Origin: Burkholderia stagnalis
GTDB taxonomy: Bacteria; Pseudomonadota; Gammaproteobacteria; Burkholderiales; Burkholderiaceae
Assembly: GCF_902830275.1 (NCBI RefSeq)
Contig: NZ_CADESW010000006.1
Location: forward strand, 62,001 to 126,000
Length of the DNA stretch: 64,000 nucleotides
Reading direction: 5' to 3'
In this document: positions 6,121 through 30,118 of the stretch, one piece after another
Layout: every line of letters starts with the position of its first letter
How positions within the stretch are numbered: the stretch's first letter is position 1
Program-made: the position numbers and the translations under genes
Notes under the pieces: model-generated
Databases searched by the model: none
Seen by the model: the letters and a program-made list of their open reading frames with translations, nothing else
What the model was told of the DNA's origin: nothing

Positions 6121-7788
6121 ATGGAAATCGTCTTCACCGTCCTGATCCTGCTGCTCACCGTCGCGCTGTCCGGCGCGATCACCCGCGTGCTGCCGTTGCG
6201 GCTGCCGCTGCCGCTGATGCAGATCGCGTTCGGCGCGATCCTCGCGTGGCCGGCATTCAACCTGCACGTCGCGTTCGACCCGGAAATCTTCATGCTGCTG
6301 TTCATTCCGCCGCTGCTGTTCGCGGACGGCTGGCGGATTCCGAAGCGCGAGCTGTACCTGCAGCGCCGCGCGATCCTGATGCTCGCGTTCGGGCTCGTCT
6401 TCATGACGGTACTCGCGGTCGGCTATTTCGCGCATTGGCTGATTCCCGAGTTGCCGCTGCCGATCGCGTTCGCGCTCGCCGCGGTGCTGTCGCCGACCGA
6501 CGCGGTCGCGCTGTCGGGCATCGCCGGAAAGGGCCGGATCCCGCCGCAGCTGATGCACATCCTCGAAGGCGAGGCGCTGATGAACGACGCGTCGGGCCTC
6601 GTCGCGCTGAAGTTCGCGGTGGCCGCCGCGCTGACCGGGATGTTCTCGCTGCGCGACGCGTCGGTGACGTTCGTGATCGTCGCCGCCGGCGGGCTCGCGA
6701 CGGGCGCAGTGGTGTCGTGGCTGTTCAGCGTGCTGTCGACGCGCTTCCTGAACGCCGAGCAGGAGGGCGATCCGGCGCCCGGCATCGTGATGACGCTGCT
6801 CGTGCCGTTCGCCGCCTACCTGTTCGCCGAGCATCTGGACCTGTCCGGCGTGCTGGCCGCCGTATCGGCCGGGATGATGATGAATTACACGAGCTTCTCG
6901 CGCAAAAGCACGGTCGCCGCGCGCGTGCGTGCGGAAAGCACGTGGGCGATGATCGAGTTCGTGTTCAACGGCATGGTGTTCATCATGCTCGGGCTGCAGT
7001 TGCCGCACATCATCGGCCGCGCGCTGGTCGACGCGCACCATACGAGCGACGCGCTCGTCGGCCGGATGATCGTCAACGTGCTCGCGATGCTCGTCGCGCT
7101 CTATGCGATCCGCTTCCTGTGGGTGTGGCTGCTGCGCTGGATCGCGAGCCGCCGCGCGGCGCGCCAGGGCCTCGCCGGCACGATGGCGGGGCTGCGCACG
7201 ATCGCGGTGATGACGGTCGGCGGCGTGCGCGGCGCGGTGACGCTCGCCGGCGTGCTGTCGATCCCGGTCGCGCTCGGCGACGGCACGCCGCTCGCCGGGC
7301 GCGACACCGCGATCTTCATCGCGTCGGGCGTGATCCTCGGTTCGCTGTTCGTCGCCGTCGCCGGCCTGCCGCTGCTGCTGCGCGGCGTGCGCTCGACACG
7401 CAACCCGCACGAGGAAGAGGAGCGCAGCGCGCGCGCGGCCGCCGCGCAGGCCGCGATCCGCGCGATCGACACCGCGCACGATGCGATCTCGGTCGACCTC
7501 GACGAAACCGGCTCCGCGCGCTGCGCGGACATCGCCGCGCGCGTGATGGAGCAGTACCGGCGCCGCCTCGCCGCGCTGTCCGACGGCGACAAGACGCCGC
7601 GCGCGCAGGCCAGGCAGTCCGAAAGGATGGAATTGCAGATGCGGATCGCGGCCGTGCGCGCGGAACGCTCGATGCTGTACAAGATGCGCGGCGATCACCG
7701 GATCTCCGACGAGACGCTCGTCAAGCTGCTGCGCGAAATCGACCTGTCGGAAACGGCGCTGTCGACGCGCAAGAAGGGGTTGGCCTGA
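6121..7788 (+). CDS. Na+/H+ antiporter, CPA1 family
   Basis: 555 aa inner-membrane protein with about 12 hydrophobic segments in the first 430 residues and a cytoplasmic basic/charged tail. Family marks are PTDAVALSGI, EGEALMNDASGLVALK (the ND/ASG ion-binding core) and VGGVRGAVTLAGVLS, as in bacterial NhaP/YjcE-like CPA1 exchangers. It exchanges cytosolic Na+ (or K+) for protons; ion preference cannot be read from sequence. The stop codon is part of the first unit of an 11-bp tandem repeat, so unit loss or gain would not alter the protein. Confidence 0.9.
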   Translation: MEIVFTVLILLLTVALSGAITRVLPLRLPLPLMQIAFGAILAWPAFNLHVAFDPEIFMLLFIPPLLFADGWRIPKRELYLQRRAILMLAFGLVFMTVLAVGYFAHWLIPELPLPIAFALAAVLSPTDAVALSGIAGKGRIPPQLMHILEGEALMNDASGLVALKFAVAAALTGMFSLRDASVTFVIVAAGGLATGAVVSWLFSVLSTRFLNAEQEGDPAPGIVMTLLVPFAAYLFAEHLDLSGVLAAVSAGMMMNYTSFSRKSTVAARVRAESTWAMIEFVFNGMVFIMLGLQLPHIIGRALVDAHHTSDALVGRMIVNVLAMLVALYAIRFLWVWLLRWIASRRAARQGLAGTMAGLRTIAVMTVGGVRGAVTLAGVLSIPVALGDGTPLAGRDTAIFIASGVILGSLFVAVAGLPLLLRGVRSTRNPHEEEERSARAAAAQAAIRAIDTAHDAISVDLDETGSARCADIAARVMEQYRRRLAALSDGDKTPRAQARQSERMELQMRIAAVRAERSMLYKMRGDHRISDETLVKLLREIDLSETALSTRKKGLA

Positions 7789-7865
7789 GGTTGGCCTGAG
7801 GTTGGCCTGAGGTTGGCCTGAGGTTGGCCTGAGGTTGGCCTGAGGTTGGCCTGAAGTTGGCCTGA
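7778..7865 (+). repeat. Eight tandem copies of an 11-bp repeat over the antiporter stop codon
   Basis: Unit GGTTGGCCTGA begins at 7778, 7789, 7800, 7811, 7822, 7833 and 7844, seven exact copies, with an eighth copy (first base pair changed to A) at 7855. The TGA at 7786-7788 in unit 1 is the antiporter stop. As 11 is not a multiple of 3, further TGA codons appear in all frames along the array. It is probably a polymerase-slippage VNTR. Confidence 0.97.
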
Positions 7866-7962: not shown

Positions 7963-10900
7963 TTACTTCGCGACGACCACCGGAATCCCCTTCAGCGTGC
8001 CCGCGCCCTTCACCTCGTCGAGCGCGTGCTGCACCGCCGCGCTCGTCGCCGCGTCGATGCCGAGCTGCAGCGCGAGCTCCCGCTCCGCGCGCTTCACGCC
8101 GGCGAGGTTGCGCAGCTTCACGTGGCCGAAACCGCGCACGCGCGCATGCAGGTCGGCGAGCTGCGCGACGCGCGCCGCGTTGTCGGCCGTCGTCGCGGCG
8201 AGCGCGCGGGCCAGCGTCGTCTCGTAGTCGTCGGCGAGCGCGCGCTCCATCCTGCGCTCGACGGTGCGGCCGAACGGATCGAGCCACGTGCCGCGCAGGC
8301 TGCGCACGCGCGCGAGCGCGCCGAGCACCGGCCACATCCACTGGCCGAACACGCGCTTCTTCGGCACGCTGCCGTCGCGGCCCGCCTTCGCGACCGTCGG
8401 CGGCGCGAGGTTGAACTTCACGCGATAGTCCTGCCCCGGCACGCCTTCGAACTGCGCTTCGAGCGCGGTGCGGAATGCGCCGTCCGCGTACAGGCGCGCG
8501 ACCTCGTATTCGTCCTTCACCGCGAGGAGGCGATAGAACGTCGTCGCGACCGCGCGCGTGAGCGCATCGTCGCCCTTCGCGTGCGCGGCGTTCACGAGCG
8601 TGCGATAGCGCTCGACGTAGCGCGCGCCGCCGTAGGCGTCGAGGCGCGCTTCGCGATCCGCGATCAGCTCGGCGAGCGTCTCGGGCGCGGCGTGCGCCGC
8701 CACCGCGTGACGCGCGTTCCACAACGCGTCGAGGCCGGCCGGGTCGCCCGCCGCCATCCGGCCGATCGAGAACGCGAGCTTGTTCATCGGCACCGCGACG
8801 TTGTTCAGCTCGATCGCGCGCATCATCGCCGCGTGCGACACCGGCACGAGGCCGAGCTGCCATGCGAAGCCGAGCATCAGGATGTTCGCGCCGATCGAAT
8901 CGCCGAGGAACTTCGCGGCGAGCGCCTGCGCGTCGCAGCTCGACAGGTAGCCGTCGCCGGCCGCGTGATGCATCTTCTCGAGCAGCGCGTCCGCGTGCAG
9001 ATTCGCGTCGGGGTTCTGCACGAACGACGCGTTCGGGATCCGGTGCGTGTTGACGACGATCCGCGAGCGCTCGTGGCGCACCGTCTGCAGCGCGTCCGCG
9101 CTCGCGCCGACCACCATGTCGCACGCGAGCAGCACGTCCGCCTGCTGCGTGTCGATGCGCACCTGGTGCAGCCATTCGTCGCTCGCGGCGATCCGCACGA
9201 ACGACAGCACCGAGCCGCCCTTCTGAGCAAAGCCCATGAAGTCGAGCACCGATGCGCTCTTGCCTTCGAGGTGCGCGGCCATGCTGACCAGCGCGCCGAC
9301 CGTCACGACGCCGGTGCCGCCGACGCCCGTCACGAGCATGTCGTACGGCGCCGCATCGAGATGGGTGGCCGGCACCGGCAGCGCGTCGACGCGCGCGGCG
9401 AGCGCCGCCTCGTCGAACGCCGCGCCCGCGGCCTTCTTCAGCGCCGCGCCTTCGACCGTCACGAAGCTCGGGCAGAAGCCGTTCACGCACGAGAAATCCT
9501 TGTTGCACGACGACTGGTCGATGCGGCGCTTGCGGCCGAGCGGCGTCTCGAGCGGCTCGACCGACAGGCAGTTCGACTGCACGCCGCAATCGCCGCAGCC
9601 TTCGCACACCGCGTCGTTGATGAACAGGCGCTTGTCCGGGTCGGGGAATTCGCCCTTCTTGCGGCGGCGGCGCTTCTCGGCCGCGCAGGTCTGGTCGTAG
9701 ATCAGCACGGTGACGCCCGGCGTCTCGCGCAGCTCGCGCTGCACCGCGTCCAGTTCGCTGCGGTGGTGGAACGTCGTGCCCTTCGGGAACAGCCCGTGAT
9801 GGCCATCGTACTTCTGCGGTTCGTCGGACACCACGACGAAGCGCGACACGCCTTCCGCCTCGACCTGCCGCGCGATCTGCGGCACCGAGATGCTGCCGTC
9901 CACCGGCTGGCCGCCCGTCATCGCCACCGCGTCGTTGTAGAGGATCTTGTACGTGATGTTCGCCTTCGCGGCGACCGCCTGGCGGATCGCGAGAATCCCC
10001 GAGTGGAAGTAGGTGCCGTCGCCGAGGTTCTGGAACACGTGCTTCGTGTTCGTGAACATCGCGTGCGCGGCCCAGTCGACACCCTCGCCGCCCATCTGGA
10101 TCAGCCCGGTCGTGTCGCGCTCCATCCACGACGCCATGAAGTGGCAGCCGATGCCGGCCTGCGCGATCGAGCCTTCCGGCACCTTCGTCGACGTGTTGTG
10201 CGGGCAGCCCGAGCAGAAATACGGCGTGCGCTTCACCGCGTCGGCCTCGTTCGACAGGATCTGCGGCGCGACCAGGTCGACCACGCGCTCGCGGCGATCG
10301 AGCGCCGGCTTGTGGCGCGCGAGCCATTCGGCGAACACCGGCAGGATGCGCGACGGCCGCAGCTCGCCGAGCTCGGACAGCAGGCACGCGCCTTCGGCGT
10401 CATGCTTGCCGAGCACGCGCGGGCGCGCGCCGTCCGCGCGGTTGTACAGGTAGTCCTTGATCTGCTGCTCGATCACCGGGCCCTTCTCTTCGATCACGAG
10501 CACCTCGGCGAGGCCGTCGACGAAGGTTTCGATGCGCGTCATCTCGAGCGGGTACGACAGGCCGACCTTGTAGATCCGCACGCCGGCCGCTTCGAGATCG
10601 GCGACGGTGAGGTCGAGCCGGCGCAGCGCTTCCATCAGGTCGAGGTGCGCCTTGCCGCAGGTGACGATGCCGACGTTCGCGTGCGCGGCCGGCGCGATCC
10701 ACTTGTCGATGCTGTGGGTGCGCGCGAAGTGGCGCACCGCGTCGAGCTTCGCCGCGAGGCGCGCCTCGATCGTGAGGCTCGGCAGGTCGGGCCAGCGGTT
10801 GTGCAGGCCGCCCGCGGGCGGCGTGAAGCCGGCCGGCGCGGGCCAGTGCGTGCGCACCGCGTCGAGGTCGACGGTCGACCCCGATTCGACCGTCTCCGAG

Positions 10901-11535
10901 ATCGCCTTGAAGCCGACCCACGCGCCCGAGTAGCGCGACAGCGCCCAGCCGTACAGGCCGAATTCGAGCATGTCGGCGATGTTCGACGGATTCACGACCG
11001 GCATGTGCCACGCGATCATCGCGAAGTCGCTCTGGTGCGGCATCGACGACGACACGCAGCCGTGGTCGTCGCCCGCGACGACCAGCACGCCGCCATGCGG
11101 CGACGAGCCGTACGCGTTGCCGTGCTTCAGCGCGTCGCCCGCGCGGTCGACGCCCGGGCCCTTGCCGTACCACATCGCATAGACGCCCTCGACCGTGCGC
11201 TCCGGGTCGGCCTCGACGCGCTGCGTGCCGAGCACCGCGGTGCCGCCGAGTTCTTCGTTGATTGCGGGCAGGAAGCGCACGCCGCTGCCGTCGAGCAGTT
11301 TCTTCGCCTTCCACAGCTGCTGGTCGACCATGCCGAGCGGCGAGCCGCGGTAGCCGCTGACGAAGCCGGCCGTGTTCAGGCCCTGCTCGGCGTCGGCCGC
11401 GCGCTGCATCAGCAGCAGGCGCACCAGCGCCTGCGTGCCGGTCAGGAAGATCCGGCCGCGCGTGGCGGTCAGGTTGTCGGTCAGACGATAGTCGGATAGG
11501 GCGGGCGTGCCATCGATGGGCAAGCGGGCGGTCAT
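7963..11535 (-). CDS. Indolepyruvate:ferredoxin oxidoreductase, fused alpha-beta type
   Basis: 1190 aa. Thiamine-diphosphate and iron-sulfur enzyme that oxidatively decarboxylates aryl- or branched-chain 2-oxo acids with coenzyme A. The N-terminal half (to about 720) is the IorA-like pyrimidine- and TPP-binding part (YRGSPLG near residue 65, FCSGCPHNTS near 430, GIGCHFMASWM). A cysteine-rich Fe-S segment is CEGCGDCGVQSNC, then CNKDFSCVNGFC. The gamma-type domain follows (VTGVGGTGVVTVGAL), and the C-terminus is the DUF6537-type region of these fusions. Single-gene unit; 89-bp repeats lie upstream. Confidence 0.93.
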   Translation of the reverse strand: MTARLPIDGTPALSDYRLTDNLTATRGRIFLTGTQALVRLLLMQRAADAEQGLNTAGFVSGYRGSPLGMVDQQLWKAKKLLDGSGVRFLPAINEELGGTAVLGTQRVEADPERTVEGVYAMWYGKGPGVDRAGDALKHGNAYGSSPHGGVLVVAGDDHGCVSSSMPHQSDFAMIAWHMPVVNPSNIADMLEFGLYGWALSRYSGAWVGFKAISETVESGSTVDLDAVRTHWPAPAGFTPPAGGLHNRWPDLPSLTIEARLAAKLDAVRHFARTHSIDKWIAPAAHANVGIVTCGKAHLDLMEALRRLDLTVADLEAAGVRIYKVGLSYPLEMTRIETFVDGLAEVLVIEEKGPVIEQQIKDYLYNRADGARPRVLGKHDAEGACLLSELGELRPSRILPVFAEWLARHKPALDRRERVVDLVAPQILSNEADAVKRTPYFCSGCPHNTSTKVPEGSIAQAGIGCHFMASWMERDTTGLIQMGGEGVDWAAHAMFTNTKHVFQNLGDGTYFHSGILAIRQAVAAKANITYKILYNDAVAMTGGQPVDGSISVPQIARQVEAEGVSRFVVVSDEPQKYDGHHGLFPKGTTFHHRSELDAVQRELRETPGVTVLIYDQTCAAEKRRRRKKGEFPDPDKRLFINDAVCEGCGDCGVQSNCLSVEPLETPLGRKRRIDQSSCNKDFSCVNGFCPSFVTVEGAALKKAAGAAFDEAALAARVDALPVPATHLDAAPYDMLVTGVGGTGVVTVGALVSMAAHLEGKSASVLDFMGFAQKGGSVLSFVRIAASDEWLHQVRIDTQQADVLLACDMVVGASADALQTVRHERSRIVVNTHRIPNASFVQNPDANLHADALLEKMHHAAGDGYLSSCDAQALAAKFLGDSIGANILMLGFAWQLGLVPVSHAAMMRAIELNNVAVPMNKLAFSIGRMAAGDPAGLDALWNARHAVAAHAAPETLAELIADREARLDAYGGARYVERYRTLVNAAHAKGDDALTRAVATTFYRLLAVKDEYEVARLYADGAFRTALEAQFEGVPGQDYRVKFNLAPPTVAKAGRDGSVPKKRVFGQWMWPVLGALARVRSLRGTWLDPFGRTVERRMERALADDYETTLARALAATTADNAARVAQLADLHARVRGFGHVKLRNLAGVKRAERELALQLGIDAATSAAVQHALDEVKGAGTLKGIPVVVAK

Positions 11536-11868: not shown

Positions 11869-13280
11869 GGCGGGCATCCTCACCGATGGATTGCACAGGG
11901 TTTCGATTCGTCGAGCGAGGCGGATATCCACAATGGAAATGCGGCTCGACGCGTGTGATCGGCAGTCATGCTCACCGTTGAAATGCACAGGGCTTCGAGT
12001 CGCTTTCGAGGCCGGGGATCGACATCGGGCCTGATGCCTGATCGAGACGGCAGCGCTCGTGCTCACCGTTAGAATCCACAGCGTTCTGAGTGGCCTCCGG
12101 GACCGGATATCCACACTCGATCTGGCGACATGTTCGCGCAGGTGCCTGCGCTCACCGATGGAATCCATAGTGTTCCGAGTGATCGGGGAGGCTGGATGTC
12201 CACACCGAGTTCACCGGCACGTTCGATCAGCGCCTCACCCTCACCGTTAAAATACACAGCGTGTCGAGTGGCTTCGGAGAGCGGATATCCACACCGAGTC
12301 CGCAGGCACGTTCGATCAGCGCCTCACTCTCACCGTTAAAATGCACGGCGCTCCGAGTGGTTCCGTTGAATGGTTGTCCGCACCGGAATCGGCAACACAT
12401 TCGATCGCGCTCACACTCACCTTCGAAGTCCACAGCGTTTCGAGTGACTCCGGAGGCGGGATATCCACACTGAGTCCGCAGGCACGTTCGATCAGCGCCT
12501 CACTCTCACCGTTAAAATGCACAGCGCTCCGAGTGGTTTCATCGGGCGGATATCCACATCGGAATCAGCGGCACTTGCGATCGTATGCCTGCACTCACCT
12601 TCGGAATCCAGAGCGTCTCAAGTGGCCCCAGAGGCTGGATATCCACACCGAATCTGCCGACGCGGTCGATCAATGCCTCACCCTCACCGTTAAAATACAC
12701 AGCGCGCCGAGTGGCTTCGGAGAGCGGATATCCACACCGGAATCGGCAACACGTTCGATCGCGCGCTCGCACTCACCTTCGGAATCCACAGCGTTTCGAG
12801 TAGCCGCGGAGGCTGGATATCCACACCGAGTCCGCCGACACGTTCGATCAACGCCTCACCCTCACCGTTAAAATACACAGCGCGCCGAGTGGCTTCGGAG
12901 AGCGGATATCCACGCCGGAATCGGCAACACGTTCGATCGCGCGCTCGTACTCACCTTCGGAATCCACATCGTCTCGAGTGGCCCCGAAGGCTGGATATCC
13001 ACACCGAATCTGCCGACGCGTCCTGTCGTCGCCTCACCCTCACCGTTAAAATGCACAGGGTTCCGAGTGGCTTCGGCGAGCAGATATCCACACCGGGCTC
13101 GACAACACACACGATCACGCGACGCCCCTCACCGTCGTGTTTCACAGCGATCCGACTCGTTTCCGAAGCCGGATATCCACACCCCGATCCAGCGACGCGT
13201 TCAATCAGGGTCCACGCTCACCATTGAATTCCACAGCATTTCGCGTCGCTTCGGGCGCGGATATCCACAACCGAAAGCGC
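11869..13280. repeat. Tandem array of 16 units with an 89-bp period
   Basis: A GATATCCACA-type anchor recurs at 11923, 12017, 12106, 12195, 12284, 12373, 12460, 12549, 12638, 12727, 12816, 12905, 12994, 13083, 13172 and 13260. Twelve of the 15 steps are exactly 89 bp; the others are 94, 87 and 88. A second motif, CTCACCGTTAAAATACACAGCG-like (AATCCACAGCG in other units), lies 54 bp after each anchor and 35 bp before the next. An incomplete extra copy of the second motif begins the array near 11872. Since 89 is not a multiple of 3 and units carry in-register TAA on one strand, no protein repeat is encoded. Units alternate in two types between 12460 and 13083. Confidence 0.97.
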
Positions 13281-13377: not shown

Positions 13378-14508
13378 TCACCACCCATCCCATCCGGTCC
13401 ATGCCTGCGCGCCGGCGCCGTACTTGTTGAGCTTCGCAGCCAGCGCAACCGGCATCGCCATCAGGCCGAGCCCCTGGTCCGGATGTCCGCCGCCGAAGGC
13501 GTTCGACGTCGCCGACGCAAAATGGTCGGTATAGATGATGTTGATCTTCGGGTCGCGTTCCGGGTGATACGACCAGCTGGGAACCGGGTTGAGCGGATCG
13601 CGGACGAAGAACCGCCTCAGGCGCGGATTGACGTCGTTCGCCGCGCGATCGACGATGCTGGTCATCAGCGATCGTCCCCAATACGTGCAAGTCCACGAAA
13701 GCAGGTGCAGCGTGCCCGGCGCGCCGCCCGCCGGATTCGCGGGATAGTTGACCCCGAACTGCGCGGGCGCGATCGTGCGATTGCCGCGCTGCGTCAGCCT
13801 CCGGTACTGCGTGGCCGCCATCTCGTCCACGTCGCTCGCGTTCGAATACTGGTCGAACAAGGTCAGGCTGTTCGCCGCCTGGCCGATTACATATTTGTTG
13901 ATGAGGAAGAAGCCTCTCGGCAAGGTCAATGCCGGGTTGACAAGATACGGCTCCCGGCGCTGATCCATCGCGCCGTCATAGAGAATGGCCACCCGGGATT
14001 TCACGGAACGATCGCCGGGATTGACGAGGAGCTGTCCGTAATTGGCGTTGAACAGGTTGATGTTGTCGGCAACCGTCGCGCTGTTCTGCGTGTACTGCAC
14101 CAGCCGGTCGCCGAGCGTATTGCTCAGGTAATCGATGAAGCGGGCGTGCATGTCGTCGCCCCACTCGCCGTTGAAGTGCGAGATGTTCAGAATGACGAGT
14201 TCGCAATCCGCCGCTCGAATGGTCGTGAAGTAGTTGATGATCGCGCGCAGGATATTGTCGAACGAGTCTCCCCAGTAAGGCGCGCCATGGTAGGTCCAGT
14301 ATGTGCCGTTGCGCGCGATAGCGGGGCGCAGGTCGAAATAGCGTATGCCACCGGCGAGCTGTGCCGCCATGTCCGCGGTTTGCGTGCGCGCCATGCGCGC
14401 CAGGCGCATGGAGTTCACGTAGCAGCCGCTGTCGTGCGTACCGGGAATCGTGATCGCGCTCAACGGCCGGTTCTGCAGGTAGTTCGCGAAGAGTTGGGTC
14501 ATCCACAT
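13378..14508 (-). CDS. PI-PLC X-domain phosphodiesterase
   Basis: 376 aa. A TIM-barrel phosphatidylinositol-specific phospholipase C-like protein. The catalytic pattern is visible: IPGTHDSG (His25, Asp26), RYFDLRP (Asp59, Arg61) and WTYHGA (His74), matching the two histidines and Asp/Arg of bacterial PI-PLC. No signal peptide is apparent (the protein starts MWMTQLF and enters the barrel at residue 16), unusual for an enzyme normally secreted, so export may use another route or the substrate may be intracellular. It lies 16 bp after a small gene on the same strand and is probably co-transcribed. Substrate is not deducible. Confidence 0.85.
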   Translation of the reverse strand: MWMTQLFANYLQNRPLSAITIPGTHDSGCYVNSMRLARMARTQTADMAAQLAGGIRYFDLRPAIARNGTYWTYHGAPYWGDSFDNILRAIINYFTTIRAADCELVILNISHFNGEWGDDMHARFIDYLSNTLGDRLVQYTQNSATVADNINLFNANYGQLLVNPGDRSVKSRVAILYDGAMDQRREPYLVNPALTLPRGFFLINKYVIGQAANSLTLFDQYSNASDVDEMAATQYRRLTQRGNRTIAPAQFGVNYPANPAGGAPGTLHLLSWTCTYWGRSLMTSIVDRAANDVNPRLRRFFVRDPLNPVPSWSYHPERDPKINIIYTDHFASATSNAFGGGHPDQGLGLMAMPVALAAKLNKYGAGAQAWTGWDGW

Positions 14509-14524
14509 GTCGATGTCTCCTCGC

Positions 14525-15013
14525 TCAGCTGTTCACGATGGTCAACGCATTCAGGTATGCCCCGTCCTTGCCTGAAACGAATTGCAGGAGCTTGAATGCG
14601 TTGGGCGGCGTGCATTGCACATCCGCATAGACGATCACGTCTGACAGATGGCAGTCCTCGGCGATCTGCAGATAGTCCTTCGTGCTCTTGCCGTCCGGAT
14701 CGGACAGGGCCGCAGGAGGCGTCTTCGCGTCGCACTGGTTGATCTTCGCAACGATGCTGGCCGACTTCTGCGGATCGAGCGGCACCGTAAAGGTGACGAC
14801 GATCACTGCCGACCCGGCGCTCCCCGCGACCACCAGGTCCTGCGATACGGATTGGCGCGAAGGCAGCGCAATGTTCTGGAAGGCGGGCGCGTTGCCCTTC
14901 CCCCAATCCGACGCATTGGCGTAGGTTGCGCTCATGGAAATGTCGTAGGGGGTGGCGTTCTCGATGACCAGGCTGGTCTTGTAATCCTGCGGAATCGGGT
15001 TGGACAGAGGCAT
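14525..15013 (-). CDS. Small protein of unknown function, paired with the PI-PLC gene
   Basis: 162 aa from the ATG at 15013, preferred because AAAGGA lies about nine bases upstream; an earlier in-frame ATG at 15031 is possible. There is no signal peptide or membrane segment. The pattern of alternating hydrophobic residues (TSLVIENATPYDISMSATY, then VIVVTFTV) suggests a beta-sandwich. Three cysteines are present. It is upstream of and in the same unit as the PI-PLC gene. A resemblance in length and style to small membrane-active beta-sandwich proteins (aegerolysin-like) is only a guess. Confidence 0.7.
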   Translation of the reverse strand: MPLSNPIPQDYKTSLVIENATPYDISMSATYANASDWGKGNAPAFQNIALPSRQSVSQDLVVAGSAGSAVIVVTFTVPLDPQKSASIVAKINQCDAKTPPAALSDPDGKSTKDYLQIAEDCHLSDVIVYADVQCTPPNAFKLLQFVSGKDGAYLNALTIVNS

Positions 15014-15344
15014 GGCAAACGTCCTTTGCATGAGGCCGGCGCACCCCGCCGGGGAGACCGGCAGGCATGCGTTCGGGTGAGCTGACCGGTGCCTCCACTT
15101 TGTGTTGCGCGCTTCGTCCGGACAATGTGGCAGACGTCATGCGAAGGGCGGAACGGATGGCCCATGACGACGAGGCCATTCGTGGCGCGAGCGACGTGGC
15201 GCGATTTATTTCATTACTAGTCATTGAATGACTAGTTATTTGATTTACCCTTTATTCGACGCTCGACGGCATGCTGGTCGCCCCTGTCCCAACCTCCCCC
15301 GCTCGGGTACGCTTGACCATCGACCGACGACACGCGGAGGCGCG
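15014..15344. other. Divergent promoter region with AT-rich core
   Basis: 331 bp between the small unknown gene (leftward) and the GST gene (rightward). The part from about 15203 to 15250 is strongly AT-rich and contains a perfect palindrome (listed separately). A short rightward frame ending near 15229 has no recognisable family. Confidence 0.5.
15216..15236. promoter_or_regulatory. 21-bp perfect palindrome, candidate operator
   Basis: ACTAGTCATT and AATGACTAGT are exact inverted arms around a single G. It is in an AT-rich promoter block about 110 bp before the GST start and 200 bp before the small-gene start. Such symmetric ACTAGT-type dyads are typical of TetR- or MarR-family sites, but no such regulator gene lies beside it. 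Confidence 0.6.
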
Positions 15345-15959
15345 ATGAAGCTCTACTACTGGCCGAAGACCCGGGCGTTCCGGGCGCTGTGGATGCTGGA
15401 GGAAATCGGTGTCGGCTACGAGCTGGAGCCGATCGACCTGCGCTCGCACGAACAGGGCAGCGACGCGTTCGTCCAGGTCAACCCGATGGCGAAGCTGCCC
15501 GCGCTCGACGACGGCAGCGCGCCGTTCGCCGAATCCGGCGCGGTGCTGCTCTACCTCGCCGACCGCTTTCCCGACGCGCAGCTAGGCGTCGCGCCCGACC
15601 ATCCGCTGCGCGGCCGCTTCCTGCAATGGCTGTTCTTCACGCCCACCTGCCTCGAGCCCGCGATGGCGGAAAAATTCACCGGCGCGTCGGGCAACCCCGT
15701 CGCATTCGGCTGGGGCAACATCACGCGCGTGCAGCGCGCGCTGGCGCAGACGCTCGCCCACAGCCCGTGGCTCGTCGGCGAGCACTTCACGGCCGCGGAC
15801 CTGCTGCTCGCCAGCACGCTGAAGATCGCGTTCGACGCGCACCTGCTGCCGCACGAAGGCGTGCTCGGCGACTACGTCACGCGCGCGGAAGACCGCGACG
15901 GCTTCCGCCGCGCGGTGGCGATCGAACAGCGCGAAGCGGCGCGGCTGCTGCATCCGTGA
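15345..15959 (+). CDS. Glutathione S-transferase
   Basis: 204 aa cytosolic GST. The N-terminal thioredoxin-fold domain (about 1-78) has YYWPKTRAFRALWMLEEIG, the cis-Pro turn MAKLPAL and ESGAVLLYLAD, which together form the glutathione site. The C-terminal helical domain has FTAADLLLAS, the N-capping motif of GSTs. Start chosen for the GCGGAGG ribosome site just upstream. It stands alone; the substrate is not known. Good match to the 200-230 aa norm. Confidence 0.93.
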   Translation: MKLYYWPKTRAFRALWMLEEIGVGYELEPIDLRSHEQGSDAFVQVNPMAKLPALDDGSAPFAESGAVLLYLADRFPDAQLGVAPDHPLRGRFLQWLFFTPTCLEPAMAEKFTGASGNPVAFGWGNITRVQRALAQTLAHSPWLVGEHFTAADLLLASTLKIAFDAHLLPHEGVLGDYVTRAEDRDGFRRAVAIEQREAARLLHP

Positions 15960-29693: not shown

Positions 29694-30118
29694 CTCGAAT
29701 CGGAATCCTGTGAACGTGATCAACGTCACAGGTCGCATCATACGAGTGCGGCCAGCGCATCGCATCGGGTGTTTCCCTACAACTTCTTACAGCGCGTTGC
29801 ACGCTTGCCGTAGCGGGCCCCGTAGCAGTTCCGGTAGCCGTAGCGGTTCCGGTAGCCGCAAGCCGTAGCAGTCCCGGTAGCCGCAAGCCGTAGCAGTCCC
29901 GGTAGCCGCAAGCCGCAGCGGTCCCGGTAGCCGCAAGCCGCAGCAATCCCGGTAGCCGCAAGCCGCAGCGGTCCCGGTAGCCGCAAGCCGCAGCGGTCCC
30001 GGTAGCCGCAAGCCGCAGCAGTCCCGGTAGCAGCAAGCCGCAGCAGTCCCGGTAGCAGCAAGCCGCAGCGGTTCCGGTAGCCGCAAGCCGTAGCGGCGAG
30101 CCGCATCGCACGACCGTT
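29694..30118. other. Gap between DUF1289 and EamA genes
   Basis: Apart from the hairpin and the 25-bp array this gap holds a stretch at 29694-29832 with no recognised element. Confidence 0.5.
29833..30100. repeat. 25-bp tandem repeat (VNTR) downstream of the EamA gene
   Basis: Unit GGTAGCCGCAAGCCGCAGCG followed by GTCCC starts at 29851, 29876, 29901, 29926, 29951, 29976, 30001, 30026, 30051 and 30076, ten units with exact 25-bp spacing. A shortened 18-bp copy precedes at 29833. Single-base variants are at the fifth to last bases and CCG/CAG at the start. It lies in the 3' untranslated region between convergent genes. Frames that cross it (CGYRD, RLPGPLRLA) are artefacts of the repeat. Confidence 0.97.

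Follow-up and report, generated by a model that had tools for sequence, protein, structure and literature searches.

Array I and its surroundings

The window, by which we mean the whole 64,000-nucleotide stretch of Burkholderia stagnalis DNA analysed here (G000:C6:62001-126000), has a small composite site repeated sixteen times in non-coding DNA near dnaA on Burkholderia chromosome 1. This array, array I, lies 344 bp upstream of the start of an oxidoreductase gene and is separated from a glutathione S-transferase (GST) gene by two open reading frames (ORFs).

7963..11535, minus strand: fused indolepyruvate ferredoxin oxidoreductase gene (NCBIfam NF009589, E 0)
11879..13273, plus strand throughout: whole array I, 16 composite modules, intergenic
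11879..11935, plus strand: module 1 (pattern scan and HMM match)
11971..12027, plus strand: module 2 (block B degenerate, GGGATCGACA)
12062..12118, plus strand: module 3
12151..12207, plus strand: module 4 (block A reads CATAG instead of CACAG)
12240..12296, plus strand: module 5
12329..12385, plus strand: module 6 (block A CACGG; block B GTTGTCCGCA)
12416..12472, plus strand: module 7
12505..12561, plus strand: module 8
12594..12650, plus strand: module 9 (block A CAGAG)
12683..12739, plus strand: module 10
12772..12828, plus strand: module 11
12861..12917, plus strand: module 12 (block B GATATCCACG)
12950..13006, plus strand: module 13 (block A CACAT)
13039..13095, plus strand: module 14
13128..13184, plus strand: module 15
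13217..13273, plus strand: module 16
13378..15224, minus strand: two ORFs, of 376 aa (13378-14508, minus strand) and 241 aa, between the array and the GST gene
15228..15959, plus strand: GST gene (Pfam PF02798)

A pattern scan of the window placed 16 units at 11879-13273, each opening with an exact CTCACC at the start coordinate listed above, and the steps from unit to unit are, in order, 92, 91, 89, 89, 89 and 87 bp followed by nine of 89 bp. Twelve of the 15 steps are exactly 89 bp, and the sixteen-copy, 89-bp array of the preliminary description is therefore real, as are the two blocks that it placed at a 35/54-bp spacing. TRF reported periods of 89, 178 and 356 bp (the first 178-bp row scoring 1126), which indicates that a two-unit higher-order repeat is also present. 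Chance does not account for the array, since 654,345 bases of shuffled DNA gave no profile match at E<=1e-3, compared with 16 units in the window and 14-20 reported module matches in each of the 19 genomes positive with the sequence model (see below). A coding repeat was also rejected: ORFs of 176 and 112 aa run open through the array, but the 89-bp period, from which a non-coding nature had been deduced at the outset, is joined, in relatives, by gaps differing by 11 bp and by changes of strand, all of them at odds with a conserved frame.

The product of the 376-aa ORF has a TIPGTHDSG motif that appears PI-PLC-like by eye and has no Pfam or NCBIfam match; tblastn of the relatives' searched flanks gave no match to either this or the 241-aa ORF. 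TRF also found a 25-bp tandem repeat at 29836-30096 of the window (10.4 copies, 94% matches) and, close to where the oxidoreductase gene has its 3' end, eight copies of an 11-bp repeat at 7778-7865 (98% matches).

A composite module with two DnaA-box-like cores

A profile built from the window's 16 units found 259 units (16 + 243) in the window and the first locus set, and the conserved part is a composite module of ~57 bp with CTCACC, AWTNCACAG (block A), CGAGT and GG-N-T-R-TCCACA (block B). Among the 243 profile matches, CTCACC and CACAG are near-invariant (235-242 of 241-243 and 233-243 of 243 per position, respectively), and the positions of CGAGT are kept in 198-238 of 243. Seeded with the 16 window units, this profile carries less bias than alignment A1, which was picked by a pattern requiring the blocks and whose invariant columns are so by construction. 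The earlier view that the rest of the unit had diverged was overstated: CTCACC (16/16 units) and CGAGT are conserved as well, and the linkers of the window are 0.54 identical to each other, compared with 0.27 for shuffled sequence.

The cores of both blocks resemble DnaA boxes (AWTNCACA in block A and NTRTCCACA in block B). Between the T and the CACA of block A the base is unconstrained (0.07 bits in the profile), as it is in the DnaA box TTWTNCACA, and of the 12 perfect TTATCCACA boxes on C6/C7, 10 have a G ahead of T1, like the G-N-T-R-TCCACA of block B. Relative to perfect boxes, positions 1 and 3 differ in block B and positions 1-2 in block A, and affinity for DnaA may therefore be low. 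The window array contains no perfect TTATCCACA; its 12 one-mismatch 9-mers (pattern TTATNCACA) are all ATATCCACA and all on the plus strand, with none on the minus strand.

The two blocks differ in the base that follows the core. After the CACA of block A it is G in 185/187 pattern-picked modules and 239/243 profile matches, and in 12 of the window's 16 units CACAG forms the end of block A. After the TCCACA of block B it is G in 1/187 and 5/230, respectively, with A, C and T all common, whereas G comes next in 8/12 perfect TTATCCACA boxes on C6/C7 (Fisher 8e-11 versus 1/187); one of these 12 boxes belongs to the second array described below, and the whole genome has 22. CACAG is a Burkholderia adenine-methylation motif, treated in an excerpt of PMC7364216 together with B. 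cenocepacia origins. Each module thus separates a motif-bearing from a motif-free site, and the block A CACAG sites of the array are predicted to be methylated.

Location, a second array and distribution

With dnaA at C6:353579 on the plus strand, the window array lies ~278 kb upstream of dnaA, and array I is 218-281 kb upstream in 15/15 genomes that have both on one contig (closed genomes being taken as circular). It occupies one syntenic intergenic region. The oxidoreductase gene adjoins it in 16 of 19 relatives' loci, the other three being L016 and L017, which end before that gene, and the locus of G024, where the gene is 3.3 kb from the array; the GST gene flanks the other side in all 10 relatives whose flank reached it. 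In all five array-less relatives (G006, G013, G167, G187 and G216) the oxidoreductase gene is followed after ~270-350 bp by the next gene, which is GST in G013 and G187 and a potassium-channel-like gene beyond GST in G006, G167 and G216, and this flank is a natural empty site. Array-less G006 has the oxidoreductase gene 305 kb from dnaA, so that the array-dnaA distance does not by itself count as independent support for selection; its constancy partly reflects conserved gene order.

The same module forms a second, smaller array (array II) elsewhere on the dnaA chromosome, with 3-6 modules in the seven genomes looked at. Array II matches, a single one in some genomes, lie 16-34 kb downstream of dnaA in ten genomes, and array II is 298 kb from dnaA in G001 and 634 kb in G008. 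In 6/6 genomes compared, array II has a syntenic upstream flank (85-88% DNA identity), and its neighbours (a sigma-factor-like gene, by eye) differ from those of array I. When six genomes were mapped with the model, scoring 150 candidates per genome, all module matches better than E 1e-4 fell in arrays I and II in every one, and a dispersed repeat of the REP/MITE kind was rejected because matches are confined to these two clusters. A weak third match 0.93-1.13 Mb downstream of dnaA in five of the six (E 1.7e-4 to 3e-3) was dropped, since in G024, the sole one examined, it lies within a 398-aa ORF that is an aminotransferase by eye; a weak partial-module match in an origin-like region (C7:31523-31562, E 0.005) was set aside on the same grounds. 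Two origin-like segments of G000:C7 ~57 kb apart, L128 5340-5560 and L129 4282-4490, each contain perfect DnaA boxes and share the AT-rich stretch TTAACTNCTACTACGT, as though part of the c1 origin were present twice.

The search for the unit across Burkholderia that had been suggested at the outset found the array by BLAST in 23/25 genus genomes, the window's own included, and in 0/16 genomes from other families of the order. A sequence-model search of 200 genomes of the family, which used stricter filters, was positive for 19/23 genus genomes (our reading of a listing that does not itemise 161 match-less genomes) and gave no match in the other 177, from 24 other genera. Scanning 84,980 named genomes for CTCACC-N9-CACAG-N5-CGAGT-N-G gave 54 stretches, 45 in Burkholderia (cepacia, cenocepacia, ubonensis, dolosa, lata, ambifaria and others) and nine elsewhere with one match each; the module profile confirmed 45/45 of the former and 0/9 of the latter. 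On a tree of 13 oxidoreductase genes, one branch (support 1.000) parts eight array-bearing from five array-less genomes, G187 being the array-less genome nearest the array-bearing side. One change on this tree suffices to explain the distribution and would be a gain under midpoint rooting. The existence of the five array-less relatives means that the array is not essential to the genus. As in the preliminary description, we found no named Burkholderia element that fits, nor a recognisable description of the array in open-licence PubMed Central literature (where 'datA' queries also match 'data').

Spacing between modules

Steps were pooled from 38 arrays (416 steps, 402 of them of 50-235 bp) after array-II loci, partial arrays and duplicate genomes had been removed by hand. 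Of the 402, 254 measure 85-93 bp and clusters lie at 156 bp (40 steps), 167 bp (30), 178 bp (50) and 190 bp (9). Some arrays of relatives have the module in both orientations; minus-then-plus neighbours are mostly 108-109, 117-118 or 130-132 bp apart (single cases 172 and 263), and plus-then-minus steps are scattered from 90 to 303 bp, with one of 2410. The view that an exact 89-bp period is the constraint is thus not supported. Non-89 periods in relatives had been named as evidence against a structural or binding role; such periods do occur, but the array is not wholly rearranged.

Homologous gaps, numbered from the GST end, were compared in 31 of the 38 arrays, counting only state differences below 60 bp and omitting the regular 89-bp arrays (the window, L008, L009, L011 and L058) and the unmatchable L084 and L088. 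Relative to the commonest state, they differ by -11, -23, +12, +22, -22, -11, +12 and +35 bp, and 8/8 of these differences deviate by no more than 1.6 bp from a multiple of 11.15 (binomial p 5e-5, a value that treats the eight as independent and for which the period and tolerance were chosen after seeing the data). The test rests on these eight differences in four gaps, gap 4 having given none. A period of 11.15 is also obtained with R 0.85 from 133 single steps, but steps are shared by descent, and a test of 140-235 bp step lengths at the level of eight clusters, each counted as one uniform draw with the singletons at 161, 200, 212 and 218 included, was not significant (p 0.29). Out of phase are the steps of 71-73, 79-82, 161 and 218 bp and those of array II (73 and 93-97 bp). 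In an excerpt of PMC1762422, a helical repeat of 11.6 bp in vivo is fitted for lac loops, compared with 10.5 in solution, which makes 11.1-11.2 bp a plausible helix turn. Module distances in related species thus change mostly by about whole helix turns.

Three of 16 arrays (L016, L024 and L026, with 4-6 units each) keep steps of 88-90 bp and elements 0.58-0.60 identical over random linkers, which are 0.25-0.29 identical compared with 0.25-0.28 when shuffled. Linkers are 0.31-0.60 alike in the other 13, the window included, and we infer from the likeness of the window's own linkers that its perfect 89-bp steps are partly young copies from recent amplification. The spacing nonetheless looks to be under selection, though 89 bp is not fixed. 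The random linkers and the near-whole-turn gap differences bear out the earlier suggestion of selection for the spacing of bound sites, and the spacing interpretation as a whole is partly supported; the resemblance to DnaA boxes, the CACAG motif and the nearness to dnaA go beyond it.

A possible DnaA platform

Building on the observed module and its conservation, the location, the gap pattern, the methylation-motif asymmetry and the one change on the gene tree, we propose that the array is probably a cis-acting docking platform for a sequence-specific DNA-binding protein. Each ~57-bp module would offer several contact blocks to such a protein, and modules on one face of the helix would bring bound proteins into touch, so that one large nucleoprotein complex could form. 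The most likely candidate for that protein is the initiator DnaA, a reading to which we give about even odds; if it holds, the array would be a replication-control locus on chromosome 1 with a role like that of datA or a DnaA-box cluster. The initiator would bind AWTNCACA in block A and NTRTCCACA in block B, with a possible partner protein at CTCACC and CGAGT, and because CACAG overlaps block A and not block B, hemimethylation after fork passage could alter DnaA occupancy. At 218-281 kb from dnaA, the array would be duplicated soon after initiation and could from then on sequester or inactivate roughly double the amount of DnaA, thereby helping to prevent re-initiation. DnaA of a Burkholderia species is reported in an excerpt of PMC12914326 to bind canonical DnaA box DNA. 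In favour of this reading are the DnaA-box features of blocks A and B, the contrast in the base that follows them, the location close to dnaA, the sharing of one module by two arrays, the gap pattern, the random linkers, the two orientations in some arrays and the lack of an RNA fold. Pointing the other way are the imperfect match of both blocks to DnaA boxes, the position of array II, which is not always near dnaA, the p of 0.29 for periodicity, the array-less relatives, the conserved gene order behind the distance, and the lack of a perfect box and of an IHF consensus in the window array, although the consensus WATCARNNNNTTR is missing from the whole GC-rich window too and this is a weak test.

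CTCACC and CGAGT are strongly conserved, are not DnaA sites and require another explanation. They would be readily accommodated if the phased array served a different sequence-specific protein, for example one for nucleoid structuring, anchoring or segregation, and its likeness to DnaA boxes were superficial or due to a shared fold. Such a protein would also suit the departure of block B from perfect boxes, though the genome has 22 exact TTATCCACA (18 for the reversed-pattern control), and the confinement of the module to one clade of the genus, as for a lineage-specific binder, when DnaA is present in 26/26 genus genomes. We consider this possible but unlikely, because the correspondence with the DnaA box extends to details, namely the T-N-CACA of block A and the G ahead of block B, and because the array is on the dnaA chromosome, near dnaA. 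A crtS-like checkpoint, in which the chromosome-1 modules bind the c2 initiator RepA and tie c2 firing to c1 fork passage, strikes us as distinctly doubtful. CTCACC is the 3' half of the c2 RepA iteron ctCCCGAAAAacCTCACCTtt published in PMC4948915 (excerpt), CCCGAAAANNCTCACC is found in 26/26 genus genomes, clustered at the presumed c2 origin, and V. cholerae crtS, which is 62 bp long and located on c1, is a binding site of the c2 initiator (PMC11711613, excerpt); yet the other iteron half (CCCGAAAA) is absent from the modules, the base after CTCACC is mostly G or A in modules and mostly T in iterons, a 6-bp match is expected with a chance of a few per cent by rough estimate, and array-less G006 and G013 have the same iterons. 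The full c2 iteron CCCGAAAANNCTCACC was rejected as a component of the array, with none at C6:73879-75273, where the array lies, at up to two mismatches. Quite improbable, in our estimation, is a clade-specific chromosome-coordination device that would combine the half-iteron CTCACC, a CACAG methylation switch and the DnaA-box-like sites so as to read c1 fork passage to both the c1 and the c2 initiators.

We give very little credence to a satellite-like repeat that has no function and is kept even through unequal exchange and gene conversion. Recent amplification is indeed evident from the 178-bp higher-order repeat and from the 0.54 identity of the window's linkers, and linkers are above shuffled in 13/16 arrays, but module and step persist over random linkers in the remaining three, the differences between homologous gaps are close to whole turns, A, C and T can all follow block B whereas G is avoided there, and a second array with the same module occupies another syntenic place. 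The position of the array 344 bp upstream of the oxidoreductase gene could suit an operator for that gene or a transcribed regulatory RNA. This seems hardly credible given that array II has the same modules beside other genes (sigma-factor-like, by eye), that the gene is retained in array-less relatives, where the next one follows after only ~270-350 bp, and that gene and array are 3.3 kb apart in G024; an RNA element was rejected, there being no Rfam match and no conserved (covarying) fold.

Other repeats were encountered in the same genomes. G000:C3:167076-167390 (L119) is a c2-type iteron array with a 23-bp period, ~162 kb from the main cluster at C3:329662-330847, and second iteron sites ~133-172 kb from the main cluster occur in G001, G003, G005, G010, G015 and G022; these sites are possibly a titration locus for c2. 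Eight intergenic copies of another element lie at L027 6795-10118 (G000:C8:28794-32117), in the DNA around a beta-lactamase-like and a LysR-type gene (by eye). This element is an inverted DnaA-box-like pair of the TTNTCCACA-N17-TGTGGATAT type, with variants, around TTTTGTTGGCAAG. A 20-mer from it (<=1 mismatch) occurs 3-8 times in 26/26 genus genomes, array-less ones included, mostly in one cluster of a few kb where positions were listed, and is on the c2-iteron contig in G001, G006, G010, G015, G016, G022 and G024.

An excerpt of PMC11711613 names V. cholerae as the sole species in which a chromosome-synchronising mechanism has been identified. The array is a concrete, deletable candidate for chromosome timing in Burkholderia, with the array-less relatives as natural controls. 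If the gap pattern reflects helical phasing, it would be evolutionary evidence for a large phased complex, and the pairing of a block A that has CACAG with a block B that lacks it makes a role for the CACAG methyltransferase in replication testable.

Comparison with known systems

datA and DARS combine a few DnaA boxes with IHF/Fis sites; IHF is needed at datA, and an IHF site lies within both datA and DARS2. The DnaA-box clusters of B. subtilis provide many sites near the origin and are suited to titration, and the boxes of both E. coli and B. subtilis are separate, canonical ones. The array is like datA/DARS in being non-coding, in its conserved place relative to dnaA and in lying outside oriC, and unlike them in that its composite modules, up to ~20 in number, include CTCACC and CGAGT blocks and the IHF consensus is missing; it differs from the box clusters in repeating a module with fixed internal geometry. 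In an excerpt of PMC5010248, E. coli datA, DARS1 and DARS2 are non-coding loci outside oriC that act on DnaA and keep a conserved relative distance from the origin. With the origin-proximal, high-density DnaA-box region of E. coli, discussed for DnaA titration in an excerpt of PMC12371093, the array shares its many origin-near box-like sites. Vibrio crtS (PMC11711613, excerpt) is, like the array, a conserved module of ~60 bp on the main chromosome of a multi-chromosome genus, but crtS is one site and not an array; our array is on the dnaA chromosome, shares with c2 iterons only the half-iteron CTCACC, and is absent from G006 and G013, both of which have c2 iterons. The c2 RepA iteron arrays (PMC4948915, excerpt) are likewise direct repeats near a replication origin, with iterons of 19-21 bp, whereas the array on the dnaA chromosome has a 57-bp module in steps of at least 89 bp. 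We do not file the array as a member of the datA/DARS group or of the DnaA-box clusters, the weak IHF test having given no consensus site, but it may work much as these loci do.
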